Made by a program: the position numbers and the translations under genes. Below, one piece after another: positions 907 through 33,885 of a stretch of DNA of 64,000 nt (positions are counted from its first letter, which is position 1; the number at the start of each line of letters is the position of its first letter). The notes beneath the pieces were generated by a model, which was not told the DNA's origin, searched no databases, and saw only the letters and a program-made list of their open reading frames with translations. Source of the stretch: Haliea salexigens DSM 19537 (GTDB taxonomy: Bacteria; Pseudomonadota; Gammaproteobacteria; Pseudomonadales; Halieaceae); contig NZ_AUHJ01000004.1 of the NCBI RefSeq assembly GCF_000423125.1, positions 186,001-250,000 on the forward strand, read 5' to 3'.

Positions 907-984
907 GCGAGTGTCATCTATGAGACAGGGGCCATTGGCTAAGCTGATAGTTGTGTAATGATGTCGATAAAAAGGGGATCCGCG

Positions 985-2748
985 ATGACAACGTCGCTGC
1001 CACAGGGCCGAAGACAGTTTATCAAGTCAGCACTCGGGACAGCGTCCGCCTTGACTCTGGCCAAAATCGCGCCCGCTTGGGCTTATCCAACAGGTAGAAG
1101 CTATGGCGATGTGATCCACGCTGATCAGGCAGTTGATCTAGTAATCCGACGGGAAAACCAGACGATCGCCGGGCTCAGCGGCAGGCCGATCACTATCAAT
1201 GGCAGCATGCCGGGGCCGCTGATCAGGCTCAAAGAAGGGCAACGCGCACGGCTGAACGTGACTAACGGGTTGAATGAGGACACGTCGATCCACTGGCACG
1301 GGATTATTCTTCCCGAGAATATGGATGGTGTGCCCGGCGTCAGCTTCCCCGGCATCAAGCCGGGAGAAACATTCCACTACGAATACGAGGTGCAGCAAAA
1401 CGGAACCTACTGGTACCACAGCCACTCCGGGTTACAGGAGCAGCTAGGCCACTTGGGGCCGCTTGTCATCGACTCAGCGGATGGCGACATTGGGGCAGAT
1501 CGGGAGCACGTCATTATTCTCAGTGACTGGACCTTCGAAGATCCCTACGAGGTGTTTCGCAATCTCACGGTGGCCGAGGGATATTACAATTATCAGCAAC
1601 GCACGCTGGGCGACACGCTCGCCGATATTCGCCGCCAAGGGATTGCAAAAACCTGGGAAGAGCGCGCCATGTGGAACCGCATGCGTATGAGTGCCCGGGA
1701 TATTCTAGATGTCACCGGGTCCACCTATACATACCTGATTAACGGCCGCGACAACGCAACCAACTGGACGGCGCTGTATAAACCCGGGGAACAGGTTCGG
1801 CTGAGAGTCATCAATGGCTCTGCCATGTCATTTTTCGATTTCCGCATTCCAGGCCTGGAGATGACCGTGGTCTCTGCGGATGGCCAGCCGGTCAAACCAG
1901 TGACCGTTGACGAGTTCCGGATCGGCGTAGCGGAAACCTACGACGTTATTGTGACCCCGCAGGGCAATCGGCCTTATACGCTGTTCGCGGAAAGCATGGA
2001 CCGCAGCGGGTACGTACGAGGTACGCTGGCGACGCAGTTGGGGCAGGCAGCGCCCGTGCCAGAACTGCGCCCCGTACCAGAGCGCGGAATGGCAGCGATG
2101 GGAATGTCGCATGCAATGGGTGACATGCAATCATCCGGTAGTGAATCAAGTATGGAAGACCATGCTGCGATGTCACATCGGCCCGGCCCGATGACGTCAG
2201 GTCGGCAGCGCCCCTCGGCACCGGATTTGGGCATTCAGCATGCACCGGGCGGGCATGGACCCGCAGCGGCCATGATAGCCCGCAATCCCGTGAGCCGACT
2301 GAACGAGCCCGGCGTCGGGCTCGAAGATGTGGGCCATCGTGTTCTGGTCTATGGTGATCTTGTGGGCGCTCATCCCTGGCCTGACGAACACGAGCCGGCG
2401 CGGAATATTGAGCTTCACCTGACGGGAAATATGGAAAAATACATGTGGTCGTTCGACGGCGAGAAATACTCTGAAGTCGATGGGCCGGTAGCATTTCGCC
2501 ACGGCGAGCGCCTGCGCCTCATTATGGTGAACGACACCATGATGGATCATCCCATTCACCTGCACGGTATGTGGATGGAGCTGGAGAATGGGCAGTACCC
2601 CCGCCCCAGGAAGCACACGATCAGCCTTAAACCGAGTGAAGTAGTTTCATTGCAGATCAGTGCCGATGCGCTCGGCAGTTGGGCATTTCACTGCCATCTT
2701 CTCTATCACATGAAGGCGGGCATGTTCCGCGTGGTCAACGTCAGCTGA
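985..2748 (+). CDS. copA: Copper-resistance multicopper oxidase CopA
   Basis: A periplasmic oxidase of 587 residues, thought in this family to oxidise or bind Cu(I). I chose the ATG at 985 because AGGGG (973-977) sits 7 bases before it; an in-frame ATG at 958 would add nine residues but has no clear ribosome site. A Tat signal carries RRQFIK at 9-14, ending near APAWA. Three cupredoxin domains supply the copper ligands: HWHG and HSHSG in the N-terminal domain, HPIHLHG and HCHLLYHMKAGM near the C-terminus. A Met/His-rich segment (AAMGMSHAMGDM and on) lies between domains, as in CopA/PcoA. It is followed by copB after 9 bases. Confidence 0.95.
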   Translation: MTTSLPQGRRQFIKSALGTASALTLAKIAPAWAYPTGRSYGDVIHADQAVDLVIRRENQTIAGLSGRPITINGSMPGPLIRLKEGQRARLNVTNGLNEDTSIHWHGIILPENMDGVPGVSFPGIKPGETFHYEYEVQQNGTYWYHSHSGLQEQLGHLGPLVIDSADGDIGADREHVIILSDWTFEDPYEVFRNLTVAEGYYNYQQRTLGDTLADIRRQGIAKTWEERAMWNRMRMSARDILDVTGSTYTYLINGRDNATNWTALYKPGEQVRLRVINGSAMSFFDFRIPGLEMTVVSADGQPVKPVTVDEFRIGVAETYDVIVTPQGNRPYTLFAESMDRSGYVRGTLATQLGQAAPVPELRPVPERGMAAMGMSHAMGDMQSSGSESSMEDHAAMSHRPGPMTSGRQRPSAPDLGIQHAPGGHGPAAAMIARNPVSRLNEPGVGLEDVGHRVLVYGDLVGAHPWPDEHEPARNIELHLTGNMEKYMWSFDGEKYSEVDGPVAFRHGERLRLIMVNDTMMDHPIHLHGMWMELENGQYPRPRKHTISLKPSEVVSLQISADALGSWAFHCHLLYHMKAGMFRVVNVS

Positions 2749-2757
2749 GGAGGCACC

Positions 2758-3507
2758 ATGAGAAAACTGAACACCGTGATATCTCTGATGCTTGCCGGGA
2801 TGAGCGCGCCGCTGCTTGCTGGCCACGCCGAAGAACACTGGCCCGAACCCGTCAAGCCCTATCGTACCGGCCAAGTGCTCTTTGACCGGCTGGAAGTTGC
2901 CCGCACCGACAATGATGACGATTTGATCGTCTGGGACATGCTGGCCTGGTATGGCGGGGATAGAAATCGAGTGTATTTCAAGAGCGAGGGGGAAAACCAG
3001 CGGGACGATGGTGAGCCTTCAGAGCTGGAAAGCGCGGAGGTACTCGCCAGCCGCTTGATTGCGCCGTTCTGGGAACTACAGGGTGGCCTTGGCACCCGCG
3101 GGTCGATGGCCTCGGGTGCGGACAGGGAGAATTACCTGGTGTTCAGCCTGTTTGGACTGGCCCCCTACCGGTTCGAGATGGATAACTCCATCACAATTAA
3201 CGAGGAAGGCGATATCACCGCCAACCTTGAGGCCGAGTACGACCTGCGCCTGTCTCAGGTGTCGTACCTGCAGCCTCGCTTGGAAGTCTCCGCAGCACTC
3301 ACGGATGCTGACGCCTACGATCGCCCCAGCGGTTTCAATGACCTGCGCGTGGGGCTACGTTACCGCCACGAACTCTCAAGGGAGTTTGCGCCTTACCTGG
3401 GTGTTTACTGGAGCCGCGCCCTAGGCAACAAGGCAGACCGAATTCGCGCGCAAGGCGGCGATGAGTCAACTCTAGGTGTCGTGGTCGGCGTTCGTATGTG
3501 GTTCTAG
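2758..3507 (+). CDS. copB: Copper-resistance outer-membrane protein CopB
   Basis: A 249-residue protein with a signal peptide (MRKLNTVISLMLAGMSAPLL) and a C-terminal barrel-like half ending in the outer-membrane signature VVVGVRMWF. The stretches DLIVWDMLAWYGGDRNRVYF and RFEMDNSITIN are typical of CopB/PcoB. The usual Met/His-rich N-terminal repeat region is almost absent, so this is a short version of the family. It starts 9 bases after copA with GAGGAGG just before the ATG, so the two are surely co-transcribed. The role of CopB in copper retention or export at the outer membrane is known only in outline. Confidence 0.92.
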   Translation: MRKLNTVISLMLAGMSAPLLAGHAEEHWPEPVKPYRTGQVLFDRLEVARTDNDDDLIVWDMLAWYGGDRNRVYFKSEGENQRDDGEPSELESAEVLASRLIAPFWELQGGLGTRGSMASGADRENYLVFSLFGLAPYRFEMDNSITINEEGDITANLEAEYDLRLSQVSYLQPRLEVSAALTDADAYDRPSGFNDLRVGLRYRHELSREFAPYLGVYWSRALGNKADRIRAQGGDESTLGVVVGVRMWF

Positions 3508-3542
3508 GTCGCTCACTGTGCACAACAACAACCGGAGGATAT

Positions 3543-4895
3543 ATGGCCAAGGAAGACGATAGAACAACGCAGTACCGAGAAGGTAGCCTCACCCTAGCAG
3601 GAACGGTGATGCTGGGGACTGGCGTGATGATCGGTGCGGGCATTTTCGCACTAACTGGGCAGATGGCTCAGATGACCGGCGTCCTCTTCCCGCTGGCGTT
3701 TCTGGGTGCTGCTGTAGTCGTGTCCTTCAGCGCCTACTCGTACATCAAAATATCCAATGCCTACCCGTCGGCAGGCGGCATTGGCATATACCTGCACAAA
3801 GCCTACGGTGACCGGTTGCCAACGGCCTTCAATGCACTGCTCATGTATTTTTCGATGGTGATTGCACAGAGCTTTCTTGCGCGGACGTTTGGCGCGTACA
3901 CCATGCAGCTGTTCGGTGGCGATGAGAGCGGCCTGATGGTGCCCATTCTCGGCGTCGCACTCATTCTTGTAGCTTTCGTCATCAACCTGTCCGGCAACCG
4001 CCTGGTCCAGGGCGTGGCGTCCGTCATAGGTGTGATAAAAATTGTCGGTATTCTCGCCATCGGGCTGACGGGGGTCTGGATTGCAGATAGTCTGTCGGTT
4101 GATTTCTCAAGCCCTGGGGAAGCCGGCACCGTCGGCAATTTTTTGGGCGCGACCGCACTGGGAATTTTGGCGTTCAAGGGCTTCACGACCATTACCAACA
4201 GCGGCTCGGAAGTGGAAAACCCGAAACGGAACGTGGGCCGCGCCATTGTGATTTCCATTGCGGCGTGCGTGGTGATCTACACCTTGGTTGGCTTTGCCGT
4301 TGCGAGTAATCTTTCCCTCGCCGACATTATTGAGACGCAGGACTACTCTCTCGCGGCGGCCGCACGGCCGGCGTTGGGCGACTACGGTGTGTGGTTCACG
4401 GTAGCCATTGCCATGATGGCTACAGCAGGCGGCATTCTGGCCAGTATCTTCGCGGTGTCCAGAATGCTGGCGATGCTGACGGAAATGAACCTGGTGCCGC
4501 ACAGCCACTTCGGTATGTCGGGCAGTATTCAAAAGCACACACTGGTCTACACCGTGGTGCTGGGGCTCATGCTGACCGCGTTCTTTGATCTTTCCCGGAT
4601 CGCTGCGCTGGGCATCATCTTTTATCTGATCATGGACATCGCCATCCATTGGGGCGTCATCCGTTACTTGCGCGAGGACATCAAGGCCAATCTCTGGGTG
4701 CCCGCCACGGCCATTGCGCTCGACCTGTTGGTGCTGGGTGGCTTCCTGTGGGTCAAGATCAATACCGACCCCTTTGTGATCGGTGTAGCCGTTGTCACCA
4801 TGATCATCATTGCGGTGGCCGAAACACTATTCCTGAAAAAGTCTGCGGAGTCAGCGCAATCTGACGAAGGGGAATCGCACGCACACGACCACTGA
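3543..4895 (+). CDS. APC-family permease
   Basis: A 450-residue inner-membrane protein with about 12 hydrophobic segments. The N-terminal motif [15 protein letters not shown] is the unwound TM1 helix of amino acid-polyamine-organocation transporters, and [21 protein letters not shown] matches the conserved TM6 region and following loop. The start at 3543 has GGAGGA 3 bases upstream; an upstream start at 3498 overlaps copB and is unlikely. The C-terminus is acidic and His-rich ([11 protein letters not shown]), a possible metal-binding tail. It lies between copB and the copper ATPase and is probably in the same operon. The substrate cannot be read from sequence. Confidence 0.85.
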
Positions 4896-4941
4896 TGTTT
4901 CATCACGTTATTCCGGTGGCAAAAAACGACGGGAGATCAGC

Positions 4942-7314
4942 ATGACTGAGCAGACAAACGCCCCTACCCACACTCCTCATGTAGGCTCGGCTCAGGGAGG
5001 CTCGGCTCAGGAAGGTCAATCGGCGAACGACCCGGTGTGCGGCATGTCAGTGGACCCGCACACGGCCGAGCATCGCAGCCGGCATCGCGGCAAAACCTGG
5101 TACTTCTGCTCCACGCGCTGCCAATCCCGGTTCGAAGAGGAACCGGAAAAATACTTGAGTGATGCCCCAAGGCAGAAGGAGGCCGCCGCCCCGGGCGCCA
5201 TATACACCTGCCCTATGCACCCGGAGGTTCGCCAGCAGGGTCCCGGCGATTGCCCTATCTGCGGCATGGGCCTGGAGCCCGAGCAGGTCAGCCTTGACGA
5301 TGCGCCCTCAGCAGAACTCAAGGACATGACCCTACGCTTCTGGATCGGGTTCGTACTCACACTCCCGGTGCTCGTGCTGGAAATGGGCGGACACCTGACC
5401 GGCCTCAGCCACATTGTGCCTGTGCAGGTGTCCAGCTGGATTCAACTGGTACTCGCTACACCCGTGGTGCTGTGGTGCGGCTGGCACTTTTTTGTCAGAG
5501 GCTGGAAATCCCTGGTCAGCCGGAACCTGAACATGTTCACGCTAATCGCCATCGGCACCGGCGTGGCCCTGATCTACAGCTTGGTCGCAACTCTGGCTCC
5601 CCAGGTATTTCCGAGCGCTTTCCGGCTCGACGACGGCGCTGTGCCGGTATATTTCGAAGCGGCGGCCGTCATCGTCGTGCTCGTGCTACTCGGGCAAGTG
5701 CTGGAATTACGGGCCCGGGAGAAAACCTCGGGCGCAATTAAGGCGCTGCTGGACCTGGCGCCCAAGACGGCCAGACGCTTGAGTGATGACGGCGACGAAT
5801 CCGATGTGCCGCTGGATCAGGTCAAGGTCGGGGAGCGTTTGCGCGTGCGGCCCGGCGACAAGGTGCCTCTGGACGGTGAGGTGCTGGAAGGCGGTTCCAA
5901 TGTGGATGAATCCATGGTGACCGGAGAGCCACTCCCGGTGGTCAAAAAGCAGGGCGACCCTGTGATTGGTGGCAGCATCAATCAACAGGGCAGCTTTGTG
6001 ATGCGCGCCGACAAGGTGGGTCGAGACACCATGCTGTCGCAAATTGTGCAGATGGTCGCCAGCGCACAACGCAGCCGTGCACCGATTCAGGGCCTGGCGG
6101 ACAAGGTGGCCAGTTGGTTTGTGCCCGCGGTCATCGTCATCGCTATGCTGGCCTTTATTGTCTGGTCCCTTGTTGGCCCCACCCCGCCGATGGCTTTCGG
6201 CTTGATCGCGGCGGTCAGCGTGTTGATCATCGCCTGCCCTTGCGCGCTGGGCCTCGCCACCCCTATGTCGATCATGGTGGGTGTCGGCCGCGGCGCTCAA
6301 AACGGTGTGCTGATTCGCAATGCGCAAGCGTTGGAGCGGATGGAGAAAGTCGACACCGTCGTCGTGGACAAGACAGGCACCCTGACAGAAGGCAAACCCC
6401 AGGTTACCCGGCTGGTTCCAGCGGAGGGGTTCAGCGAGCAAGAACTGATGCGGTTTGTGGGCGGTCTGGAAAAGGGCAGCGAGCACCCGCTGGCCCACGC
6501 CATTCTCGAAAAAGCCAAGGCTATGGCGTTGGCGCTGCCGGATGCCGAAGGCTTCGACTCCCCCAACGGTAAAGGCGTAACCGGAAAAATAGACGGGCGC
6601 ACGGTACTGGTCGGCAATCGGCTGTTGATGGCGTCAGCCGGTATCGATACCGCTGACTTCGATGCGCAAGCTGACGAGCTGCGCGAAGACGGTGCCACAG
6701 TCATTTTTGCCGCCGTTGACGGCAAAATTTGCGGTTTGCTGGCGATCGCGGACCCCGTCAAGTTGACCACTCAAGCCGCGATTTCTGCCTTGCAGAAAGA
6801 AGGCATTCGCGTGGTTATGCTGACCGGCGACAACCGTATCTCAGCCGAGGCCCTCGCCCGAAAACTGGGTATTGATGAGGTGCACGCGGAGGTACTGCCA
6901 GAGGACAAGGGCAGGATTGTGGAGGCTCTGCAGGAAGAAGGCCGGATTGTGGCGATGGCCGGTGACGGCGTAAACGATGCCCCGGCATTGGCCACGGCGG
7001 ATGTGGGCATTGCCATGGGCACCGGTACCGATGTGGCCATTGAGAGTGCCGGTATTACGCTGCTGCGAGGTGACCTGATGGGCATCGTTGAGGCTCGACG
7101 ATTGTCTCTCGCGACAATGCGCAACATACGCCAGAATCTTTTCTTCGCCTTTGTTTACAACTCAGCAGGCATTCCGATTGCCGCAGGCCTGTTCTACCCT
7201 GTCTCTGGTATCCTGCTATCGCCCATCTTTGCGGCAGCGGCGATGTCGCTGTCTTCCGTCAGCGTCATCGCGAATGCGCTGCGGCTGCGGTTCGTCAATA
7301 TTTCGGGGGAGTAA
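4942..7314 (+). CDS. Copper-exporting P1B-type ATPase with YHS and heavy-metal-binding N-terminus
   Basis: A 790-residue ATP-driven copper exporter of the inner membrane. Instead of the usual HMA domains, the N-terminus has a YHS domain (about 30-72: DPVCGM, CSTRC) and a short heavy-metal-binding domain (about 88-116: [17 protein letters not shown]). Then come the membrane helices, the actuator TGEP, the metal motif CPC (432-434), phosphorylated D476 in DKTGTLT, the SEHP motif (513-516), GDGVNDAP and two final helices. This is the CopA2/CtpA-like arrangement of YHS-HMBD ATPases. It lies in the cop operon 46 bases after the permease. Cu(I) is the likely substrate by motif; Ag(I) may also be carried. 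Confidence 0.94.
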
Positions 7315-9271: not shown

Positions 9272-9428
9272 GTTTAGCGACACAACTGCGTCTGCTAACG
9301 ACCAACGTTGGACCGGTTGGCTGAACTCTTGTCTTAAAGAGCCGCTTGAGATTCATTCCGTCTACTCCATTTCGCGCTACAGCGGGAACACCACCACCGC
9401 CAACCTATCAGTCAGCACAACGTGTATC

Positions 9429-10995: not shown

Positions 10996-11739
10996 TTACT
11001 TCCAAAACATCCAGATTGCCATGCTCACCATCATGACGTTCTCCGTCAGGGAGATAAAACCAAGTGGCACTTTGCTGTCCCCTCCCACGCAGGCGCATTT
11101 GAGCTCACGCTTGTCGATATACACCGCTTTGAACACCGAAACCGCACCAATGGTGCCTATTATCAGAGCAACGGGTATCGCAATCCACATCAACACGCCT
11201 GCTATCATCAGTACACCTGCCAGCGCCTCGCCGAAGGGGTAAATGAATCCGTATCGCACCCACTTCGCAGCAAGGAGATCGTAGTTCAGGAACATGGTAG
11301 AAAAGCTGCGCACATCTTGGAGCTTTTGAATTGCCAACGCGCACATCGAAAATCCGATGAACCACTCCGCAGCTAGGATTGACACCCAACTACCCGTGGC
11401 AACGTAACCGGCCGCAAGCGCCATCAGTAGTGTCATCGCAAAGATCGCTATAACCGGCTGATAGGATGTTTCCTCTGGATCGTGGACGTTCTTTCCAAAG
11501 AAGCGTCGGAGATCGTCATGCCCACCAATCCGGCTGCCGTCAATGAAGGTTTGCGGTGTCGTTTCTACGGCATGTGTGTCTTTGAATACGTCGGTTTCTT
11601 CACGCGTTTTGAGGTGATGATCCTCGACTTCATAGCCCTCGCGTTCGAGCAAGTCTTTAGACTTCAGGCCGTAAGGACAGGTGTGATCAGACATTACCAT
11701 GCGGTAAAGCTGTGCTGTTTTGCGGTTATTCATAGTCAT
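10996..11739 (-). CDS. Glutaredoxin-MauE fusion protein
   Basis: 247 residues. Residues 10-88 form a glutaredoxin domain with the redox motif CPYG (21-24), the cis-proline TPQTF and GGHDDL near the glutathione site. Residues about 92-247 form a four-helix DoxX/MauE-type membrane domain with ALAIQKLQDVRSFSTMFLNY and the late CACVGGDSKVPLGF motif. MauE-type proteins support disulfide formation or thiol transfer across the membrane; a glutaredoxin fused to it suggests passing electrons between cytosol and membrane. Its start overlaps the end of the ion-channel gene by 14 bases, so the two are translationally coupled. Involvement in copper stress is inference from location. Confidence 0.85.
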   Translation of the reverse strand: MTMNNRKTAQLYRMVMSDHTCPYGLKSKDLLEREGYEVEDHHLKTREETDVFKDTHAVETTPQTFIDGSRIGGHDDLRRFFGKNVHDPEETSYQPVIAIFAMTLLMALAAGYVATGSWVSILAAEWFIGFSMCALAIQKLQDVRSFSTMFLNYDLLAAKWVRYGFIYPFGEALAGVLMIAGVLMWIAIPVALIIGTIGAVSVFKAVYIDKRELKCACVGGDSKVPLGFISLTENVMMVSMAIWMFWK

Positions 11740-12151
11740 ATCCCTCCATTTTCATGATCATGAAGATATGGGAAGCAGAGCAGCTTATGAGTAGGAAGCC
11801 GGTCATTGCCTCAATCCCAGCGAGAAATTTCAAATGTCCCGTAGGCACAATATCTCCTAAACCGAGCGTCGTAAGATTTACTAGCGAGAAATAGTAAGTG
11901 TCCATCCAGCTGATCTGCCCTTCGATCTCAAACCCCCCGAGCCCAGCTTCACTAGAAATCCGGAAGCTGACTGCAAACCATGCAGCAGAAAGCATTTGTC
12001 CAACGGTCGCCGCTGAAAGCATGACAAGAAACCTCGCTATTTCCGGCATTTGTGATTTCACAAGATATCGATGGGACTTACTAAGAATGGCAAAGTGACA
12101 GGCACCAGCCAAGAGTAACGCACCAAACGCAATCACCACTTGCCAAAGCAT
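11726..12151 (-). CDS. Two-TM ion channel protein (potassium-channel pore)
   Basis: 141 residues: an N-terminal helix (about 5-25), an outer helix (about 40-65), a pore loop with selectivity-filter sequence TLGLGD preceded by DTYYFSLVNLTT, and an inner helix (about 108-132). The filter is a variant of the TVGYGD potassium filter. There is no cytosolic RCK or cNMP domain. It overlaps the glutaredoxin-MauE gene by 14 bases, so their products are probably made together. Whether it conducts K+ is inference from the filter. Confidence 0.82.
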   Translation of the reverse strand: MLWQVVIAFGALLLAGACHFAILSKSHRYLVKSQMPEIARFLVMLSAATVGQMLSAAWFAVSFRISSEAGLGGFEIEGQISWMDTYYFSLVNLTTLGLGDIVPTGHLKFLAGIEAMTGFLLISCSASHIFMIMKMEGYDYE

Positions 12152-12526: not shown

Positions 12527-13183
12527 CTACCGATCTCGAGAGAACATGCGCCGCCAATCAGGAATGAAGCGAGGAGTAACCTGAGCATATTGAAGCCACC
12601 GCTCGCCGAACTCGGCCTCAGCGGTGTGCTCCTCGTTTTTTGCTAACGTCAGGTACATGTAGACCAGTATTGGGTACATACCAAGGGTCAAAAGCGTTAG
12701 CCACTGAAACAGGAAACCTGTCATGATCAAGATAAAGCCTGCATATTGAGGGTGTTGTATCCGGGCATACAATCCCCGGGTCGCGAGCGCAGACGTTTGC
12801 TGGGCCGTGTACAGCTCTTGCCAGCCTTTCGAGATCAGCCAGAATCCTGCGCCAATCAGCGCAAAACTGAGTAAGTGAAAAGGTCCAAAATGCGGATTGC
12901 TCTCCCAGCCAAACATCATCTCCAACAAGTGGCCCGCGTCGTGGGAGAGCCAGTCGACCTGAGGGAAATGGGACTGCAGCCATCCTGAGAACAAGTAGAT
13001 CGTTAACGGAAAGCCGTACATCTCAGCAAATAATGCAATCAAAAAAGCGCTGAAAGCGCTGAAGCTTCGCCAGTCCGTGTCAGTCTTCGGCTTGAAGAAG
13101 CTCAATGCAAAAAGAATGAAAATTGCCGAGTTTACGATAGCTAGACCCCACAAGCCGTAGGCCTGGATACTTTCATGGTTCAC
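12527..13183 (-). CDS. Isoprenylcysteine-carboxylmethyltransferase-like membrane protein (ICMT/PEMT fold)
   Basis: 218 residues with about five membrane segments. The C-terminal half has the ICMT/PEMT hallmark: RGLYARIQHPQYAGFILIMT, then a hydrophobic helix and AKNEEHTAEAEFGERWLQYA, which bind S-adenosylmethionine in this fold. Many bacterial members lie near metal-resistance genes with unknown substrate. It overlaps the DUF2933-like gene end at 13180 by 4 bases, so the two are likely one transcript. Methyl transfer to lipid or isoprenoid is the family activity; no substrate can be named. Confidence 0.85.
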   Translation of the reverse strand: MNHESIQAYGLWGLAIVNSAIFILFALSFFKPKTDTDWRSFSAFSAFLIALFAEMYGFPLTIYLFSGWLQSHFPQVDWLSHDAGHLLEMMFGWESNPHFGPFHLLSFALIGAGFWLISKGWQELYTAQQTSALATRGLYARIQHPQYAGFILIMTGFLFQWLTLLTLGMYPILVYMYLTLAKNEEHTAEAEFGERWLQYAQVTPRFIPDWRRMFSRDR

Positions 13184-13449
13184 GGTTCGCTGTCCTCATC
13201 TTTTTCCATCACTTTATCAACCGCGAAATCTCGCGATTCATCCACTCGGAAGATTACGACAAGCAGTAAAGGACACAGAATCAACATCAGGTACAGCATA
13301 GAGCCCCACAAATGGGCCTTGTGTTCATGTAGAAGGAGTAATAAGGCTAAAAACGTGAAGCCAAGGAACACAAACCAGTATCGCCACTTTACGTACGCGT
13401 TCTGAACGTTTTTCTCAAAATCATCAATTCCTTTCTGTCCATGATTCAT
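13180..13449 (-). CDS. DUF2933-like small membrane protein
   Basis: 89 residues from ATG 13449 (an upstream start at 13470 is possible). Two close hydrophobic segments (about 24-42 and 48-68) carry LLLHEHKAHLWGSMLYLMLILCPLL split around the loop, a divergent form of the DUF2933 pattern EH-AH-YL-CPL-H; the final His-rich part is lost. Its end overlaps the ICMT-like start by 4 bases. A copper-region companion of unknown function. Confidence 0.68.
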   Translation of the reverse strand: MNHGQKGIDDFEKNVQNAYVKWRYWFVFLGFTFLALLLLLHEHKAHLWGSMLYLMLILCPLLLVVIFRVDESRDFAVDKVMEKDEDSEP

Positions 13450-13497
13450 CGGGATAACCCTATTCAGCAAGCGCGTCAGAATACAAGCATCTAGACC

Positions 13498-13863
13498 CTA
13501 CATGCGCGTATGTCTGGGCATGCGGTGACAACTCCAAGGCTCATGACTCACATTGTCTTTAACATTCTGGTCGACAAACCGGTAATACTCTTCTTTAAAA
13601 CGCGTCCACCAATCACCCTTTAATCGGACACTGTACATGGCGAGAACGTCCTCCACACATTGAATACACAGTCGGGATGCATCGTAAGAAACCATTAACA
13701 TTGCTCGCTTACTGACTAGCGCCACCGATTCAATACCATACAGCTGATCAATTTCGGAGACCGCGGCATTTAGCTGGTCGTCTGCTATCGGGCTCTCCAA
13801 CGCAAGCCGGCGATTAACCAGATTAACTTCGGAAACCCCCAATCGATAGGTTTTTTTGCTCAT
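13498..13863 (-). CDS. Small protein with HMA-like ferredoxin fold but no CxxC
   Basis: 121 residues, soluble. The order of strands and helices in residues 5-75 (KTYRLGVSEVNLVNRRLAL, then a helix, then IESVALVSKRAMLMVSYDAS, then a helix) resembles a heavy-metal-associated domain, yet the CxxC metal site is missing; the only nearby cysteines are in RLCIQCVEDV, where C-x-x-C sits in a helix instead. The tail HEPWSCHRMPRHTRM holds a further Cys and several His. I do not recognise a named family. It lies between two DUF2933-type genes on the same strand. Confidence 0.6.
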   Translation of the reverse strand: MSKKTYRLGVSEVNLVNRRLALESPIADDQLNAAVSEIDQLYGIESVALVSKRAMLMVSYDASRLCIQCVEDVLAMYSVRLKGDWWTRFKEEYYRFVDQNVKDNVSHEPWSCHRMPRHTRM

Positions 13864-14019
13864 CGTCTATTTTCAGACCTCTGTTTTCTTCGTCCAGCAT
13901 CGAAAGCGTTGCTCTGCGTGATCACGTAAAACTTAACAGTCTTATGTTCCTACCCAAACATTTTGAAGTCACAAGCCCCGCTACTGATCAATACCGTATC
14001 TATCCGCTGACATTTAGGC

Positions 14020-14298
14020 TTACTCCAGCGTTGCTTCCTTCTTCTCCTTGCGACCCTCTTCTAATCCCAAACGGTAGGCCTCAGTAACATCCTGGTGCTG
14101 GTGCTTCCTGAGATCTTGCCCGCCGTGGCCTTTGTGCATGAATACATGCATCAACGGACACAACAAAATGATCATGAAAGGCAGGTAAGATAGGAAGTGC
14201 CCAGCGTGCTCTACAAAAAGAAAATACAGTGCGGCGGCAATCAAGGTGAGCGTCGTTAGCCCGTGGAGGCTAGTCCAGTAACCGGATGGGCGCGCCAT
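14020..14298 (-). CDS. DUF2933 domain membrane protein
   Basis: 92 residues. Two hydrophobic helices (about 11-30 and 36-52) and the full DUF2933 motif: VEHAGHFLSYLPFMIILLCPL followed by the His-rich HVFMHKGHGGQDLRKHQHQ (split here for length). The tail is charged (GLEEGRKEKKEA). DUF2933 proteins often accompany copper/silver RND systems; the His cluster may bind metal. It is divergent from the DUF411-cus operon, with the CopR-type palindrome in between. Confidence 0.82.
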   Translation of the reverse strand: MARPSGYWTSLHGLTTLTLIAAALYFLFVEHAGHFLSYLPFMIILLCPLMHVFMHKGHGGQDLRKHQHQDVTEAYRLGLEEGRKEKKEATLE

Positions 14299-14885
14299 GT
14301 GAATCCTCCCTTTCCATCAATTTTACGTGCTAAACAAACACCATCATTGCCATGCATCGACCACGAAGAGCACTCGGACAGAACACAACCTGACTTAGCG
14401 ACTCCAATATTGCTGAAAATCAAACGCGGCAATACACCTGCAGCGTACAACCGCAGGCCTTTCAGCCGTGTGACACTCAGATTACAAAGATGTAATTGAA
14501 AGGTAATCTTGTGGTTAGCTGTGGCCCTCTATCATCCTTCATCAAGAACTTTTGCCACCCGAGGTTCGGCGTGACTTAAAAACGGGGTCCACACAGGACA
14601 GATTGATAACCTAGCGAACGCCTTCTCTCGTCAGAAAGGCGCTTGAGCTACTTATAGATACTTGAGAATAGAAAACCATGCATGCCAACAACGGGACGTA
14701 CTGTTTTCAGACTGGCGATGAACACAGCGGACTGACCCCGGCTGAAATATGACATGAAGCGCCCATCCTTTTGCTGAATTTACAATCGACGATCGCAGTC
14801 AGTCGTCCAGTTTGTGAGAAAGCAGGCTGTCCATCCTTATAATTTTGGCCCGAAACTCGTTAACGTACTGCCGCAGGAGACAAAC
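14299..14885. other. Divergent promoter region between DUF2933 gene and the DUF411-cus operon
   Basis: 587 bases without a supported gene. It contains the palindrome at 14481-14496 and a possible hairpin at 14619-14641 (CGCCTT/AAGGCG arms, no T-run). A long leader of about 390 bases separates the palindrome from the DUF411 start, longer than expected for a simple promoter. No riboswitch class is recognised. Confidence 0.5.
14481..14496. promoter_or_regulatory. Probable second CopR operator
   Basis: ATTACAAAGATGTAAT: the same 6-base arms as the copA operator at 891-906, with centre AAGA in place of AGAT. It lies 185 bases upstream of the DUF2933 gene on one side and 389 bases upstream of DUF411-cusCBA on the other. 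Control of the cus operon, the DUF2933 gene or both by the CopR at the left edge is inferred. Confidence 0.7.
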
Positions 14886-15401
14886 ATGGAGTTGTTATCA
14901 ACAGGAAAAGGCGTGTTTCTGAGTTTGATGGTGAGCATGCTGCTCGCGGCCTGCAACGCAGAATCGGATGCCCCATCCACCGAGAACTCGCCCGCTGCCT
15001 CTACGAGTCAAGCATTAACGGTCTACAAGCAACCGACCTGCGGTTGCTGTAAGAAGTGGATGTCACATATTGAAGAAGCAGGCATTGACGTCACCGGTAG
15101 ACACATGACGTCTATGACTGCCGTCAAGGATCGGTACCAGATTGAACCCCGCTATCAGTCCTGCCATACGGCGACTTCATCTCAGGGCTATGTCTTCGAA
15201 GGACATATCCCGGCGCGCTATATTAAAGCTTTTTTAGCAAATCCACCCGATGGAGCCATCGGGCTCGCGGTGCCCGGCATGCCTGTCGGCAGCCCGGGCA
15301 TGGAAGTCGAGAACCGCTTCACGCCCTATCAAGTGCTTCTGCTGAGAAACGATGGTGGCCATGAAGTATATGCCACTATCGAAACTGCGGCGCAGCAATA
15401 A
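14886..15401 (+). CDS. DUF411 copper-binding lipoprotein
   Basis: 171 residues from ATG 14886, which is preceded by CAGGAGACAAAC. A lipoprotein signal ends in LLAAC (lipobox). The mature part begins with LTVYKQPTCGCCKKWMSHIE, the conserved CGCC metal/thiol motif of DUF411, then SCHTA and GHIPARYIKAFLANPP, also diagnostic. DUF411 proteins are periplasmic and are linked to copper and silver resistance. It is the first gene of the cus operon, 18 bases before the TolC-like gene. A longer frame from 14814 lacks a ribosome site and would bury the signal peptide. Confidence 0.9.
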   Translation: MELLSTGKGVFLSLMVSMLLAACNAESDAPSTENSPAASTSQALTVYKQPTCGCCKKWMSHIEEAGIDVTGRHMTSMTAVKDRYQIEPRYQSCHTATSSQGYVFEGHIPARYIKAFLANPPDGAIGLAVPGMPVGSPGMEVENRFTPYQVLLLRNDGGHEVYATIETAAQQ

Positions 15402-15419
15402 AAAAACGGAGCAAGAAGG

Positions 15420-16727
15420 ATGAAAATCGGTATACCCCTGCTCATTCTAATACTTGGTGCCGGTTCAGCCACTGCACAGGCACCGCGAACGGAACTAACC
15501 CTTAGCGAGGCCATCGACACTGCCCTCGCAAACGACCATTGGTTGACGGGCAGTCGACAGACACAAGCTGCATTGATCGATGAAGGTACTGCTGCTGCTA
15601 CGCTACCTGATCCGAGAATGAGCTTAGTGGCAGGCAACTTTCCGCTCGACACGTTCGATATCAATCAGGAGGCGATGACACAGCTTTCTGTCGGTATCAG
15701 CCAGATGTTTCCCCGGGGCGATACGCTGGCATTGGCGCAAAGACAAAAGCTGGAGCTTGCGCTACAACATCCATTGTTGCGCGAAGATCGCCGAGCCAAG
15801 GTGTCGGCAACCGTCGAGCAACTGTGGCTCTCCGGCTATGAAGCGCAGGAGAGTATCCGCTTAATCGAGCAAGACCGGGCATTATTCGAGCACTTGGTCG
15901 ACGCAGCGCGTGCAAGCTACGCAACAGCTATGGGCAAGGCGCGCCAGCAGGATGTCATCCGGGCAGAACTGGAGTTGACGCGGCTTGAAGACCGTTTGAC
16001 TGCACTAAAACAACGACAGGATACCGCGCAGATGCAGCTGTCAGAGTGGATTGGCTCACGTGCCGACGGCAGGCTCACGCTAACAACCATGGCAGAGTCA
16101 CCCTCTTCATCGGTCGGGACTCCGAGTTCCGAGCAGGCCCGCTACGAGCGAGTCAGTCATCACCCCCTCCTGCTGGCATTGGATAAGAAGATAGAGGCCA
16201 AAGAAACCGATGTCGATTTGGCGAGGCAGAAATACAAACCAGAATGGGGCCTGAACGCCCAATACGGTTATCGTGATCAGGATCTGCTCGGAAGGGACAG
16301 GTCCGATCTGTTTTCCATTGGAATCACCTTTGACCTACCGCTGTTTACGGCCAATCGACAGGATAAAGAAGTGAGTGCCGCTATCGCCCATGCCGAAGCG
16401 ATCAGGACTGAAAAGCAGTTACTCTTACGCCGTTTGATGGCGGAGTTGGAAACCGCCAGTGTCTACTTAGACCGCCTTGATCAGCGATACGCACTCTATG
16501 CTGACCGCCTACTACCGCAAATGGCTGAACAATCTGAAGCCTCCTTAGCCGCCTACAACAACGACGACGGCGACTTCGCAGAGGCAGTGAGAGCCCGTAT
16601 CGCTGAGTTAAACGCGAAAATAGAAGCGCTGGTGATTACGGTTGATCGGCGTAAGACCATGGCTCAAATCAATTACCTGCTTGTACAAGCGTCATCCGAA
16701 CCCACGGGGCCCGTGAACGCTATCTGA
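15420..16727 (+). CDS. cusC: Outer-membrane efflux protein, TolC family (CusC-like)
   Basis: 435 residues, with a Sec signal (KIGIPLLILILGAGSATAQA). Two OEP repeats follow: LTLSEAIDTALANDHWLTGS starts the first, and long amphipathic helices plus short beta strands (SIGITFDLPLFTANRQ) match TolC-type ducts. It forms the outer-membrane channel of a tripartite metal pump. It is in the operon order DUF411-C-B-A, 11 bases before the adaptor gene. Symbol given by operon position; sequence alone only shows the family. Confidence 0.85.
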   Translation: MKIGIPLLILILGAGSATAQAPRTELTLSEAIDTALANDHWLTGSRQTQAALIDEGTAAATLPDPRMSLVAGNFPLDTFDINQEAMTQLSVGISQMFPRGDTLALAQRQKLELALQHPLLREDRRAKVSATVEQLWLSGYEAQESIRLIEQDRALFEHLVDAARASYATAMGKARQQDVIRAELELTRLEDRLTALKQRQDTAQMQLSEWIGSRADGRLTLTTMAESPSSSVGTPSSEQARYERVSHHPLLLALDKKIEAKETDVDLARQKYKPEWGLNAQYGYRDQDLLGRDRSDLFSIGITFDLPLFTANRQDKEVSAAIAHAEAIRTEKQLLLRRLMAELETASVYLDRLDQRYALYADRLLPQMAEQSEASLAAYNNDDGDFAEAVRARIAELNAKIEALVITVDRRKTMAQINYLLVQASSEPTGPVNAI

Positions 16728-16738
16728 GGTGTAAACTA

Positions 16739-18001
16739 ATGAAAGTCCTTTACAAAACACTGCTAACGGCTGTTGTCGGCGCAGGCATTGGGGCGGGCGG
16801 CATTCTATTGCTGCCCTCTTCACACGAAGCCGCGATGCAGGCAACTGAGGACGAACGTGAACCCCTGTATTGGGTTGCACCCATGGATCCGAACTACCGG
16901 CGCGACCAGCCGGGAAAATCTCCAATGGGGATGGACTTGATCCCTGTCTACAAAGAGCAGGATGGCGATAGCGAAGCTGGCACGGTTCGCATATCACCGG
17001 ATGTTATCAACAATCTTGGGGTACGAACGGCCGCCGCCACATCGGGCCGTTTGCATCTGGCCATAACAACAGTGGGTTACGTCCAATACGATGAGGACCG
17101 ATTGGTAACGATTAGCCCGCGGGTGGAAGGATGGCTGGACACACTGCATGTCAAGGCGGCGGGGGACCCTGTTACAAAGGGAGAGCCCCTGTACACACTC
17201 TATTCGCCAACCTTGGTCAACGCCCAAGAAGAGTTCCTCCTGGCGCTGAAGCGGGATAACCCGGACCTGATCGACGCAGCCATTGAACGCTTATCGGCGT
17301 TGCAGGTGCCAAGAGCAAAGATCGAGCAGTTACGTCGAACACAGCAGGTCAGTCAAACGATCACGATCACGGCGCCGCAATCGGGCGTCATTGACAATCT
17401 AGGAGTACGTGAGGGCATGTTTGTGACACCCGGGTCTATGCTGATGACCCTGGGCCAATTAGAGCATATGTGGGTTATCGGGGAAGTCTTCGAGCGTCAA
17501 GCGGGGCTCGTTGAAGTGGGTGACAAAGTCGTTATACGACTGGAATACCTGCCTGGCCAAGAGTTACAGGGTCAGGTGGGTTACGTGTATCCATCCCTGA
17601 ACGCGCAAACCCGTACCGTACAAATTCGCGTGCGCTTCGACAACCCGAATGGCTTACTGAAGCCCGGCATGTTCGCGCAGTTGGTCATCAATACCCAACC
17701 GCGGCCTGCTGCGCTGCTGATACCGCGGGAAGCATTGATCCGAACAGGTAGTCAGGCGCGCGTGGTCCTTGCCTTGGGCGATGGGAGATTTAAGTCGGTT
17801 GCCGTCGATGTCGGTCGTATTGGTGAGCAGGAGGTCGAGATACTCTCCGGCCTAAACGAAGGCGAGCGTATCGTTACCTCAGCACAGTTCCTGATTGACT
17901 CGGAGTCCAGTAAGACGTCGGATTTCAAACGGATGTCACACAGCGACCAAGGCAGCAACGGGCACAACAGCCACAGTCATGGGGAGAGCAACCATGATTG
18001 A
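16739..18001 (+). CDS. cusB: RND membrane-fusion adaptor with heavy-metal-binding domain (CusB-like)
   Basis: 420 residues. N-terminal membrane anchor (about 5-27), then a heavy-metal-binding domain (about 40-72) with YWVAPMDPNYRRDQPGKSP and GMDLIPVY, typical of CusB-type adaptors. The lipoyl/hairpin part (TISPRVEGWLDTLHVKAAGD, TITAPQSGVIDNLGVREGMF) and beta-barrel (GYVYPSLNAQTRTVQIRVRF) follow. The tail is His-rich (HNSHSHGESNHD). It links the channel to the pump and passes Cu(I)/Ag(I) to it. Its stop overlaps the CusA start by 8 bases. Confidence 0.92.
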   Translation: MKVLYKTLLTAVVGAGIGAGGILLLPSSHEAAMQATEDEREPLYWVAPMDPNYRRDQPGKSPMGMDLIPVYKEQDGDSEAGTVRISPDVINNLGVRTAAATSGRLHLAITTVGYVQYDEDRLVTISPRVEGWLDTLHVKAAGDPVTKGEPLYTLYSPTLVNAQEEFLLALKRDNPDLIDAAIERLSALQVPRAKIEQLRRTQQVSQTITITAPQSGVIDNLGVREGMFVTPGSMLMTLGQLEHMWVIGEVFERQAGLVEVGDKVVIRLEYLPGQELQGQVGYVYPSLNAQTRTVQIRVRFDNPNGLLKPGMFAQLVINTQPRPAALLIPREALIRTGSQARVVLALGDGRFKSVAVDVGRIGEQEVEILSGLNEGERIVTSAQFLIDSESSKTSDFKRMSHSDQGSNGHNSHSHGESNHD

Positions 18002-21000
18002 GGCTATTATTCGCTGGTCCGTGGGCAATCGGTTTTTCGTATTGCTTGCTACTTTCACGCTGATTGGAGGAGGCCTGTTTGCTCTGAAGACTACGCCGGT
18101 GGATGCTATCCCAGACCTATCCGACGTGCAGGTTATTATCAAAACCAGCTATCCGGGGCAGGCGCCTCAGGTCGTGGAGGATCAGGTGACTTACCCCCTC
18201 ACAACCGCCATGTTGTCTGTACCAGGCGCCGTCACCGTGAGAGGGTATTCCTTTTTCGGAGATTCTTTCGTCTACGTAATTTTTGACGAGGACACCGACG
18301 CCTACTGGGCGCGCTCGCGGGTATTGGAGTATCTGTCACAAGTGGCTCCTACTTTGCCGCCCAGCGCACGCCCGCAGCTGGGGCCGGACGCAACCGGTGT
18401 TGGCTGGGTGTACCTCTATGCATTGGTCGATCGCACCAGTCAGCACGACATCAGTCAGCTGCGTAGCTTGCAAGACTGGTTTTTGAAATACGAGTTACAG
18501 ACGGTTCCCGGCGTTTCAGAGGTTGCTGCACTGGGTGGCATGGTTAAACAGTATCAGGTGAAGGTAAACCCCGAGAAACTGCGGGCCTTCGGCATACCGT
18601 TATCTCATATACAAATGGCGATCCAGCGCGGCAACCAGGAAATAGGTGCTTCCGTCGTGGAGATGGCCGAAGCGGAATACATGTTGAGGGCTACTGGTTA
18701 TATTCAGAATCTTGAAGATCTCGCGGTCATCCCACTGGGCGTAGACAGTCAGGGAACGCCACTATTACTCAAGGACGTGGCGGATATCGAAATGGGCCCC
18801 CAGATGCGCCGAGGGATCGCGGAGCTCAATGGTGAGGGTGAAACGGTGGGTGGCATCATCGTGATGCGATTCGGTGAAAATGCGCAAACAACCATCGACG
18901 GTGTTAAAGCCAAGCTGGAGACACTCAAAGCCGGCTTGCCGGACGGGGTCGAAATCGTCACCGTCTACGATCGTTCCGCGTTAATCTCTCGTGCCATTTC
19001 GAGTTTGTGGAAGAGCCTTGCCGAGGAACTGGCCATTGTGGCGCTGATCTGCATCGTATTCCTGCTTCATTTCAGGTCGTCCTTGGTCGCGGTGATCAGT
19101 CTGCCGCTAGGGATACTGACAGCGTTTATCGTCATGTACTGGCAAGGCATTAACGCCAACATCATGTCACTCGGTGGCATCGCAATTGCAATCGGCGCGA
19201 TGATTGACGGGGCAATCGTACTGATCGAGAACATGCATAAGCACATGGAACAAACCCCATTGACTCCCGAAAACCGCTGGCAGGTCGTGGCCGATTCGGC
19301 TGCGGAAGTAGGGCCGGCCTTGTTTTTCAGTCTGTTGATTATCACCGTCAGTTTCATGCCCGTTTTTACCCTCGAGGCCCAAGAGGGACGTATGTTCAGC
19401 CCACTGGCCTACACTAAAACCTATGCAATGGCAGCGAGCGCAGCGCTCGCGGTCACCGTCATACCTGTTCTGATGGGTTATTTCATCCGCGGAAAGGTAG
19501 TTGCAGAAAAGAAAAACCCGGTTAATCGGATTTTGATCGCCGGATACATGCCGCTACTTAAGCGGGCCCTGCGATTTCCACGATTCACGCTTCTTATGGC
19601 ATTTTTGATCTTCCTGATCGGCATATGGCCAGTCAATAAAATCGGCAGCGAGTTCATTCCCGATCTGGATGAAGGCGACCTGATGTACATGCCCACGACT
19701 TACCCGGGCATATCAGTAGGGAAAGCCAGGGAATTACTGCAGCAGACCGACAAGTTGATTGCAACGTTGCCGGAAGTGGAGACCGTCTTTGGGAAAGTCG
19801 GTCGCGCAGACACCGCCACAGACCCAGCTCCGCTCACCATGATTGAGACGTTTATCCAGCTCAAGCCAAAGGAGGAGTGGCGCGAGGGCATGACCACGGA
19901 GAAATTAAAGAAAGAGCTGGATGCCCTAGTGAAGTTTCCTGGCCTCACCAACGCCTGGGTCATGCCTATCAAGACCCGAATCGACATGCTGGCCACCGGA
20001 ATAAAAACACCGGTAGGCATTAAAGTGGCGGGCGAAGATCTCAAGGAAATACAGAAAATTGGTCAGCGCTTAGAGCAAATTCTGAAGGATGTACCTGGTA
20101 CCGCCTCAGTGTATTCTGAGCGCGTGGCCGGCGGCCGTTATATCAAAGTGGATATTCAGCGGGAAAAGGCCGCGCGCTACGGCCTAAACATTGCCGATGT
20201 GCAGCAAGTGGTGGCCAGCGCAATTGGCGGGATGAACGTGACTCAGACTATTGAAGGCTTGGAGCGCTATCCTGTCAACCTGCGCTATCCCCAAGACTAT
20301 CGAGACTCACCGGAGCAACTTGCGTTGTTGCCCATCGTCACCCCGGGGGGGCAGCGCATTGCTCTGGCTGATATTGCAGCCGTCTACGTGGAGGACGGAC
20401 CGCCAGCCATCAAGAGCGAGAACGCGAGACTCAATGGCTGGACATTCGTGGATATCGAAGGTGTAGACGTAGGCAGCTATGTCGAAGAAGCTATGGACAT
20501 CGTTCAACGGCAGCTGGACCTCCCCGCCGGCTACTCGGTCTCTTGGTCCGGGCAGTACGAGTACATGTTGCGCGCCAAGGAGAAATTAACTTATGTGGTG
20601 CCGCTGACCTTGGTCATCATCATCGTCCTGCTTTATATGAACTTCCGTAACTTTATCGAAATAGCCATTATCCTAGGCACACTGCCCCTCGCAGTGGTCG
20701 GCTCCATCTGGCTGATGTATCTGCTGAACTTCAATTTTTCAGTGGCTGTAGCCGTCGGCTTTATTGCCCTAGCGGGCGTGACGGTGGAGATCGGAATCAT
20801 CATGTTGACCTATTTGAATCAGTCCTACAGGCATCTCCTAAAGACCTGCGAAAAACGGGGTACTGCGCCGCTCCGAAAAGAGCTGTTAGAGGCTGTCACA
20901 CTCGGAGCAGGACTTCGAGTAAGACCTGTAATGATGACGACTGTCTCCACGATCGCCGGCTTGTTACCAATAATGCTTAGTTCTGGAACGGGCGCGGAGG

Positions 21001-21116
21001 TGGTTAGTCGGATTGCGGCGCCAATGGTGGGCGGAATGATTAGCGCCGTAGTACTGACTTTGCTGGTATTACCCGTCGTGTATTACCTGTGGCGCAGGCA
21101 TTCATTGACAGCGTGA
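17994..21116 (+). CDS. cusA: Cu(I)/Ag(I) efflux RND pump CusA
   Basis: 1040 residues from ATG 17994, which overlaps the adaptor gene by 8 bases. Two RND repeats with TM1 (WSVGNRFFVLLATFTLIGGG), periplasmic DAIPDLSDVQVIIKT, and the TM4 signature GGIAIAIGAMIDGAIVLIEN, which marks the monovalent-cation (Cu/Ag) branch of heavy-metal RND pumps, in contrast to the DFG form in the CzcA of this window. It exports Cu(I)/Ag(I) from the periplasm or cytosol using protons. It is the last gene of the operon; an IS element lies about 330 bases downstream. Confidence 0.95.
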   Translation: MIEAIIRWSVGNRFFVLLATFTLIGGGLFALKTTPVDAIPDLSDVQVIIKTSYPGQAPQVVEDQVTYPLTTAMLSVPGAVTVRGYSFFGDSFVYVIFDEDTDAYWARSRVLEYLSQVAPTLPPSARPQLGPDATGVGWVYLYALVDRTSQHDISQLRSLQDWFLKYELQTVPGVSEVAALGGMVKQYQVKVNPEKLRAFGIPLSHIQMAIQRGNQEIGASVVEMAEAEYMLRATGYIQNLEDLAVIPLGVDSQGTPLLLKDVADIEMGPQMRRGIAELNGEGETVGGIIVMRFGENAQTTIDGVKAKLETLKAGLPDGVEIVTVYDRSALISRAISSLWKSLAEELAIVALICIVFLLHFRSSLVAVISLPLGILTAFIVMYWQGINANIMSLGGIAIAIGAMIDGAIVLIENMHKHMEQTPLTPENRWQVVADSAAEVGPALFFSLLIITVSFMPVFTLEAQEGRMFSPLAYTKTYAMAASAALAVTVIPVLMGYFIRGKVVAEKKNPVNRILIAGYMPLLKRALRFPRFTLLMAFLIFLIGIWPVNKIGSEFIPDLDEGDLMYMPTTYPGISVGKARELLQQTDKLIATLPEVETVFGKVGRADTATDPAPLTMIETFIQLKPKEEWREGMTTEKLKKELDALVKFPGLTNAWVMPIKTRIDMLATGIKTPVGIKVAGEDLKEIQKIGQRLEQILKDVPGTASVYSERVAGGRYIKVDIQREKAARYGLNIADVQQVVASAIGGMNVTQTIEGLERYPVNLRYPQDYRDSPEQLALLPIVTPGGQRIALADIAAVYVEDGPPAIKSENARLNGWTFVDIEGVDVGSYVEEAMDIVQRQLDLPAGYSVSWSGQYEYMLRAKEKLTYVVPLTLVIIIVLLYMNFRNFIEIAIILGTLPLAVVGSIWLMYLLNFNFSVAVAVGFIALAGVTVEIGIIMLTYLNQSYRHLLKTCEKRGTAPLRKELLEAVTLGAGLRVRPVMMTTVSTIAGLLPIMLSSGTGAEVVSRIAAPMVGGMISAVVLTLLVLPVVYYLWRRHSLTA

Positions 21117-21513: not shown

Positions 21514-21777
21514 ATGAAGAAGGGAAGATTCAGCGAAGAGAAGATGGTTGCGATTCTGCAGGAAGCAGAGCGATCAACGGTTGCCGAAGTCGCCAAGAGG
21601 TATGGCGTCAGCGAAGTCACTATCTACAACTGGCGCAAGCATTTTATGGGGATGCAACCGACAGATGTACGTCGGCTAAAGACGCTGGAGCAGGAGAATG
21701 CGCGGCTGAAGAAGATCCTAGCCGAGCGAGATCTCGAAATTGAGGTCATGAAGGAGATCAACGTAAAAAAGTGGTGA
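21514..21777 (+). CDS. IS3-family transposase OrfA (element A)
   Basis: 87 residues. A helix-turn-helix of the IS3/IS911 OrfA type (KKGRFSEEKMVAILQEAERS, VAKRYGVSEVTIYNWRKHF) followed by a leucine-zipper helix (LKTLEQENARLKKILAERDL). It binds the IS ends and oligomerises with the OrfAB transposase. Its last codons contain A_AAA_AAG (21765-21771), the heptamer for -1 frameshifting; orfB begins in the -1 frame there. Confidence 0.93.
   Translation: MKKGRFSEEKMVAILQEAERSTVAEVAKRYGVSEVTIYNWRKHFMGMQPTDVRRLKTLEQENARLKKILAERDLEIEVMKEINVKKW
21765..21771 (+). promoter_or_regulatory. Programmed -1 frameshift site of IS element A
   Basis: A_AAA_AAG read in the orfA frame (codons AAA 21766-21768, AAG 21769-21771). 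This is the classic -1 slippery heptamer used by dnaX and many IS3 elements. OrfB is open in the -1 frame from here. Confidence 0.8.
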
Positions 21778-22622: not shown

Positions 22623-22656
22623 TGGAGTGGTCCGAAAAAAGCAGGCAGGTCAGATG

Positions 22657-22870: not shown

Positions 22871-22886
22871 TGTAAGTATCCCCTGA

Positions 22887-23690: not shown

Positions 23691-23731
23691 CTGCCTGGCG
23701 AAGTCTACGAGCTCTCGCTTCGCAGCCGGCC

Positions 23732-24016: not shown

Positions 24017-24077
24017 ATTGATTATGGCTGAGAACTCCAGTTTTGCTTGGGACTATTGGCCGGGGCACTTACATCAT

Positions 24078-29487: not shown

Positions 29488-29510
29488 CCCACGAATTCAG
29501 GACTCACACC

Positions 29511-33885
<4,375 letters not shown>

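Follow-up and report, generated by a model that had tools for sequence, protein, structure and literature searches.

A KirBac-like channel gene overlapping a glutaredoxin-MauE fusion gene in a copper/silver resistance island of Haliea salexigens

The window analyzed here, a 64,000-nucleotide stretch of the Haliea salexigens DSM 19537 genome, is a copper/silver resistance island that holds two overlapping genes, one for a small KirBac-like ion channel and one for a fusion of a glutaredoxin to a MauE-type membrane domain (Grx-MauE). The pairing recurs in other genomes beyond chance, yet it is a minority arrangement. Both proteins are of known kinds, the new element being a clade of copper-island channels in which a tryptophan of the transmembrane helix TM2 is replaced by cysteine. 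With a probability of roughly 0.6, we propose that Grx-MauE uses glutathione for the upkeep of thiols at the membrane face and that the pore provides ion balance during metal export.

The gene pair and the surrounding island

Re-reading of the minus strand and a Pfam search bore out the two open reading frames and the 14-nt overlap listed in the first-pass annotation (Table 1). The channel scores 43.4 bits against Ion_trans_2 (cut-off 22.5), and the fusion scores 46.1 bits against MauE (PF07291, cut-off 27) and 24.1 bits against Glutaredoxin (PF00462, cut-off 22.9). The likely ribosome-binding site of Grx-MauE is separated from the first ATG by 3 nt and from the second by 9 nt, and because the latter spacing is the better one the true overlap of the two genes is probably 8 nt, not 14. 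A promoter and terminator scan gave signal no better than that of shuffled sequence. The earlier description of the pair itself therefore stands, but it made no mention of the copper/silver resistance island around it, which is the main context.

Table 1. Features of the gene pair and of the island in the window
Feature	Position	Strand	Evidence or remark
KirBac-like ion channel gene	11726..12151	-	141 aa; Ion_trans_2 profile
Grx-MauE fusion gene	10996..11739	-	247 aa from first ATG
Grx-MauE, alternative start	second ATG at 11733	-	245 aa; likelier start
Overlap of channel and Grx-MauE ORFs	11726..11739	-	14 nt; 8 nt with start 11733
GGAGG, likely Grx-MauE ribosome-binding site	11743..11747	-	within 3' end of channel gene
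Selectivity-filter motif TTLGLGD, residues 94-100	11852..11872	-	GLG core in 20 of 21 Cys-type channels
Codon of Cys124 in TM2 (ISCSAS)	11780..11782	-	Trp in other family members
Glutaredoxin domain, residues 5-85	11485..11727	-	Z 9-11 to solved glutaredoxins
Codon of Cys21 (CPYG), sole Grx active-site cysteine	11677..11679	-	invariant 157/157
Codons of Cys215-Ala-Cys217 (CACVGG), between TM4 and TM5 of MauE part	11089..11097	-	both Cys invariant 157/157
Multicopper oxidase (CopA type), CopB, APC permease, copper-type P-type ATPase	958..7314	+	Cu-oxidase, CopB, E1-E2 ATPase/HMBD/YHS profiles
Isoprenylcysteine-methyltransferase-like (ICMT) gene, two DUF2933 genes, small ORF	12527..14298	-	ICMT under its Pfam cut-off
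DUF411 protein and CusCBA-type RND efflux genes	14814..21116	+	DUF411, OEP, CusB-type adaptor profiles; RND pump ORF 17895-21116 by eye, no profile scan
Second RND efflux set	28177..33885	+	ACR_tran 1081 bits for 30736-33882; other two ORFs by eye

The APC permease ORF of the island (3498-4895) matches an annotated APC permease at another locus (L136). Transposase-like ORFs, read by eye, lie at 21514-24538 between the two RND sets, and they are followed, up to position 26874, by two CDF-type genes, which are unlike in sequence and of which the second is short, and by a short methyltransferase-like ORF. Two further ORFs on the minus strand were without a profile match. The product of the first (8006-9283, 425 aa) looks ATP-grasp-like by eye, matched nothing in Pfam, NCBIfam or the PDB, and has one relative across 157 Grx-MauE loci (L195:12654-13943); that of the second (13498-13863, 121 aa) matched nothing in Pfam or NCBIfam and has relatives at L131, L191 and L216, all of them copper islands. 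The same genome carries two further Grx-MauE copies (L246 and L247), both beside CusA-type genes.

Cysteines and predicted topology of Grx-MauE

An AlphaFold2 model of the fusion, built from 59 sequences with a mean pLDDT of 92.7, contains a glutaredoxin fold at residues 5-85 and helices at 94-115, 121-140, 161-180, 184-208 and 226-246. Foldseek and VIA-align matches were confined to the glutaredoxin part of the fusion. The closest likenesses of the glutaredoxin part are to Glutaredoxin 3 and to the Haemophilus influenzae hybrid Prx5-Grx, with which it shares the fold, the N-terminal catalytic cysteine and the TPQ and GG motifs; the hybrid is likewise fused to another domain, but Grx-MauE differs from both in having CPxG in place of CPxC and a five-helix membrane domain.

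Exactly three cysteines (Cys-21, Cys-215 and Cys-217) are invariant in all 157 relatives of Grx-MauE. The glutaredoxin site, whose CPYG motif had been noticed earlier and is indeed present, is CPxG and never the dithiol CPxC of class I glutaredoxins, nor is it the CGFS of class II monothiol glutaredoxins. It reads CPYG or CPFG in 143 of the 157 relatives and another CPxG in 12, and in the 2 that fall outside the pattern the cysteine and glycine are still aligned, so that the fourth-place glycine is as constant as the cysteine. Catalytic death of this site had been named as a possible objection, and a dead glutaredoxin is ruled out by this invariance.

In the MauE part, the CACVGG motif lies at the place of DCGCSG in a bona fide MauE (L342), the gene of which adjoins one read by eye as an amine dehydrogenase small subunit. 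As the CxC is also found there, it belongs to the MauE core. Grx-MauE thus shares with MauE, a protein of methylamine dehydrogenase maturation, both the profile and a CxC before the last helices, whereas it adds the glutaredoxin domain and one extra N-terminal helix, and its neighbors in the window are copper genes rather than mauD and methylamine dehydrogenase genes.

The mean number of lysine and arginine residues in the four loops, taken over the 59 Grx-MauE sequences, is 0, 2.2, 0 and 3.1, the CxC loop being the most positive. By the positive-inside rule, loop 2 and the CxC loop are predicted to lie on the cytosolic side, as is the glutaredoxin domain. Given this shared side, the simplest reading would be a glutathione-glutaredoxin-CxC exchange at the inner face of the membrane, and the motifs fit a glutathione-linked monothiol enzyme rather than a DsbD-like relay.

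Recurrence of the pair and the TM2 cysteine clade of channels

Of 397 Pseudomonadota genomes searched, 65 carry Grx-MauE, as do 6 of 232 gammaproteobacteria; 17 of 58 relatives also gave a match, though only a weak Grx-like one in G015, G032 and G037 (the genome of the window is counted each time). Matches were also present in 299 plasmid records, 285 of them covering at least 80% of the query. To describe the neighborhood we used 77 phylum loci, each taken with flanks of about 8 kb or as much as its contig offered; the copy in the window and two incomplete matches were excluded, and two of the 77 are the other Grx-MauE copies of the window's genome. A second set of 80 similarity-ranked loci overlaps the first in part (the contigs of L110 and L189 are equal in length), and 59 random regions from the same genomes served as controls. 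Seven copper-island markers (multicopper oxidase, CopB, CopA ATPase, CusA, CueR, DUF411 and DUF305) were sought with references derived from both the window and plasmids.

Grx-MauE is enriched beside copper efflux and oxidation genes. At least one marker lay within 8 kb at 44 of the 77 phylum loci and 52 of the 80 similarity-ranked loci, compared with 1 of the 59 random regions (Fisher p = 2e-13), and at least two lay there at 24/77, 36/80 and 0/59, respectively. The first contrast rules out chance adjacency of Grx-MauE and copper genes. At the remaining 33 of the 77 phylum loci, markers were absent within 8 kb, suggesting that copper may not be the sole or original task of the fusion.

A channel gene was found no more than 8 kb from Grx-MauE at 6 of the 77 phylum loci, 6 of the 80 similarity-ranked loci and none of the 59 controls. 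The phylum loci are G571, G593 (twice), G625, G642 and G506, the last five loci belonging to one genus; the similarity-ranked ones come from Oceanicola, Erythrobacter (two), Maritimibacter, Roseitranquillus and Puniceibacterium. From the density of channel genes about 0.02 such loci would be expected in 77, a figure that assumes some 4 Mb per genome and independence, although the six loci are not independent; the excess over the controls alone is slight (Fisher one-sided p = 0.03). A chance neighborhood of channel and Grx-MauE is thus rejected more weakly than that of Grx-MauE and copper genes, five of the six phylum matches being from a single genus. Seen from the side of the channel, the 397 genomes gave 29 matches at E <= 1e-28, and 7 of these, the window's included, lie within 8 kb of Grx-MauE. 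No co-localized pair outside the window's genome was found in the 232-genome gammaproteobacterial sample, which is too sparse for a test.

The search of other genomes for the same pair, which the first-pass annotation had called for, therefore found it again, and in both gene orders. The channel comes first in the window, and Grx-MauE comes first at L080, L117 and L183, where the stop and start overlap by 4, 1 and 4 nt, respectively. Recurrence in both orders with overlaps makes a shared pathway for the two proteins likely. Among close relatives only one locus, L022 (same genus), has both genes; its Grx-MauE is intact and its channel is frameshifted and interrupted by stops, so the pair is decaying in this relative. 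A CDF gene at the same locus nearly matches the window gene 24574-25527 over its first 60 residues.

The commonest third partner is DUF305, present at 11 of the 12 channel loci of both sets and not in the window. Loci with DUF305 include L137, L138, L086, L105, L183 and L191, and in L137 and L138, both of which were read, the protein has an N-terminal hydrophobic stretch. One member of this family, CopM, has been studied and is described as periplasmic and copper-binding (PMC4335983).

The model of the channel (7 sequences, pLDDT 88.0) has three transmembrane helices and a pore helix (helices 2-32 and 37-68, pore helix 82-95 and TM2 107-137), and the protein stops at residue 141 just past TM2. 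The nearest solved relative is the inward-rectifier K+ channel KirBac3.1, with which it shares an Ion_trans_2/KirBac-like pore loop alike in sequence (E 1.2e-8) and fold (TM 0.56-0.58 of the query). It differs from KirBac3.1 in lacking the C-terminal cytosolic Kir domain and in having an extra N-terminal helix, a cysteine in TM2 and the filter TLGLGD. The filter core TLGLG stands against the TVGYG, or TxGYG/TxGFG, of K+ channels. A GLG filter is found in some known K2P pores.

Among 69 distinct channels, all of which share His-19, the TM2 position of Cys-124 is occupied by tryptophan in 48 and by cysteine in 21. The alignment (A2) was seeded from Grx-linked loci or plasmid matches, and its recall is accordingly biased to the cysteine type; the phylum sample of 29 matches is less biased, though it was searched with the same alignment. 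The Cys-type channels form one clade (support 99/95), and all 21 have leucine at the middle filter place, within a GLG core in 20 and GLA in one; the other channels most often have phenylalanine there. All 21 also lie near copper genes, DUF305 or Grx-MauE, with DUF305 alone at L340 and L341; one apparent exception at first (L312) proved on a wider view to sit in a CusCBA/oxidase cluster. In the phylum sample, 12 of 12 Cys-type channels occur in such contexts as against 2 of 17 Trp-type channels, both adjoining an APC permease gene, the comparison being of unequal windows, as all but one of the Trp-type loci were seen with 1.5-kb flanks.

The cysteine is not required for a copper context, because other types occur there too: seven Trp-type channels lie in copper, Grx-MauE or APC-permease islands (L036, L048, L080, L096, L311, L313 and L369), and two channels with alanine at the TM2 site (L363 and L364) lie beside copper ATPases. 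L080 and L096, which are paired directly with Grx-MauE, are Trp-type channels with the filter TLGYTQ and form a separate lineage. Several lineages of the small channel have thus entered copper islands, and the cysteine marks the largest. Instead of TxGYG, the filter reads TLGYTQ or TLGYAQ in L080:8756-9175, L096:3073-3489, L314 and L334, two of these channels lying directly after Grx-MauE.

On plasmids, 20 channel regions from 92 records with a match were examined. Copper genes, DUF305 or Grx-MauE lie near 15 of the 20 (by annotation or scan), and all 11 Cys-type channels fall within these 15. Of the remaining five, L360, L365 and L368 have NhaA and an APC permease, L366 has an APC permease, and L370 is without annotation. 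The order copA-cueR-channel-DUF305-glutaredoxin is found in Roseovarius and Marinovum and the order CopA-CopB-channel-DUF305-glutaredoxin in Glaciecola and Alteromonas, and IS elements break some of the arrays. An APC-type permease gene, sometimes with NhaA, recurs beside channels and copper genes (L360, L365, L366, L368, L136 and L337-L339). The presence of NhaA and APC permease genes beside some channel copies is consistent with a role of the channel in ion balance.

Possible roles of the pair in metal export

We infer a topology, substrates, K+ selectivity and a physiological role for the pair as follows. The channel and Grx-MauE would be co-translated accessory genes of a mobile copper/silver island. 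Grx-MauE would act as a membrane-anchored monothiol glutaredoxin, with its glutaredoxin domain and CxC at the cytosolic face; electrons from glutathione would reach the CxC by way of the only glutaredoxin cysteine. The CxC could then keep thiol sites near the membrane reduced and unloaded while metal is pumped out, candidate targets being the copper-binding CxxC or CxC sites of the exporters or Cu(I)-glutathione adducts. The pore, a pared-down KirBac-like tetrameric cation channel, most likely for K+, would give a compensating ion flux that protects the membrane potential and the cytosolic K+ and pH against the effects of electrogenic Cu+ export and of RND efflux driven by protons. Response to a common stress would account for the shared operon of the two genes, and no coupling of electron flow to ion flow is implied. 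Cupriavidus metallidurans has been reported to need glutathione for its full resistance to copper (PMC10304878). Against this proposal stands the absence of the channel beside most Grx-MauE copies, DUF305 being the steadier neighbor of the channel.

The first-pass annotation had suggested that electrons could cross the membrane through Grx-MauE, which would resemble a minimal DsbD. In this reading the cytosolic glutaredoxin would deliver them by way of the MauE domain to periplasmic thiols, such as those of copper oxidases or DsbA/DUF411-like proteins. A link of MauE to disulfide formation in methylamine dehydrogenase has been speculated upon (PMC7794033), and DsbA-family genes occur near some Grx-MauE loci (3/77 and 7/80) and on several plasmids, but such neighbors are rare, and with only three invariant cysteines, one in the glutaredoxin domain and two in a positive loop predicted to be cytosolic, a periplasmic-side center would have no conserved cysteine to draw on. 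Unlike DsbD/CcdA, Grx-MauE has neither cysteines serving both membrane faces nor periplasmic thioredoxin-like domains. The relay is thus not supported, and we have dropped it as the leading model and consider it unlikely. We judge it just as improbable that the two genes are coincidental passengers, generic stress genes side by side in hitch-hiking islands with no common function. The islands are mobile, with transposase-like ORFs in the window, and most Grx-MauE loci have no channel; however, the pair recurs in both orders in alpha- and gammaproteobacteria, with overlapping frames and a shared third partner in DUF305.

It is also possible that the pore is gated by thiols or copper, in a way that would recall the glutathione-controlled K+ efflux of Kef or the S-glutathionylation of Kir6.1, though the channel belongs to neither kind. 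Glutathionylation of Cys-124, or its binding of Cu(I) or Ag(I), would alter gating, and Grx-MauE would reverse the modification. The replacement of tryptophan by cysteine at one TM2 position is clean over the 69 channels, the clade that carries it is well supported and always found in the contexts described above, and Grx-MauE is a monothiol glutaredoxin, the type suited to deglutathionylation. In addition, glutaredoxin rescues glutathionylated Kir6.1, a mammalian channel in which a TM2 cysteine matters (PMC11631806). The Cys clade may nevertheless represent one historical change, L080 and L096 retain tryptophan despite their direct pairing with Grx-MauE, and 5 of the 12 Cys-type phylum copies have no Grx-MauE within 8 kb. 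Furthermore, Cys-124 aligns with Val-126 of KirBac3.1, two residues past Leu-124, and is therefore probably not pore-facing, nor would it correspond to the site of Cys-176 in Kir6.1. Taken together, these points leave gating of the pore as a tentative possibility, and the more specific proposal that the TM2 cysteine turns the pore into a thiol/soft-metal switch, its K+ flux altered by Cu(I)/Ag(I) or glutathione on this residue and restored by the co-translated Grx-MauE, appears doubtful.

The pair has a distant parallel in the glutathione-controlled K+ efflux systems KefB and KefC, with which it shares only the idea of a thiol-linked K+ flux as stress protection. Kef is an unrelated protein, an antiporter fold with a KTN domain, and no Pfam match to the Kef antiporter or to KTN/RCK domains was found in the pair. 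Among the papers listed in our literature searches, none dealt with a Grx-MauE fusion or with such a channel in copper islands. The closest was a copper-gene map of Acidithiobacillus ferrivorans ACH, in which genes for a copper ATPase (copB), a copper chaperone (copZ), a glutaredoxin (grxA) and a potassium channel (kch) are drawn together; in the portions of that paper available to us, its authors tie grxA to copper-driven glutathione depletion, kch is named only in a figure legend, and, in contrast to the gene described here, grxA carries no mention of a MauE fusion (PMC7463520).

Accounts of copper resistance usually center on pumps, oxidases and chaperones, and the recurrence of a small channel, a membrane glutaredoxin and DUF305 in chromosomal and plasmid islands would extend them to ion balance and glutathione chemistry. 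The change from tryptophan to cysteine that marks the channel clade offers a single mutation by which to probe metal or thiol control of a bacterial channel, and the pairing suggests a part for both ion balance and thiol repair in the way these cells survive copper.
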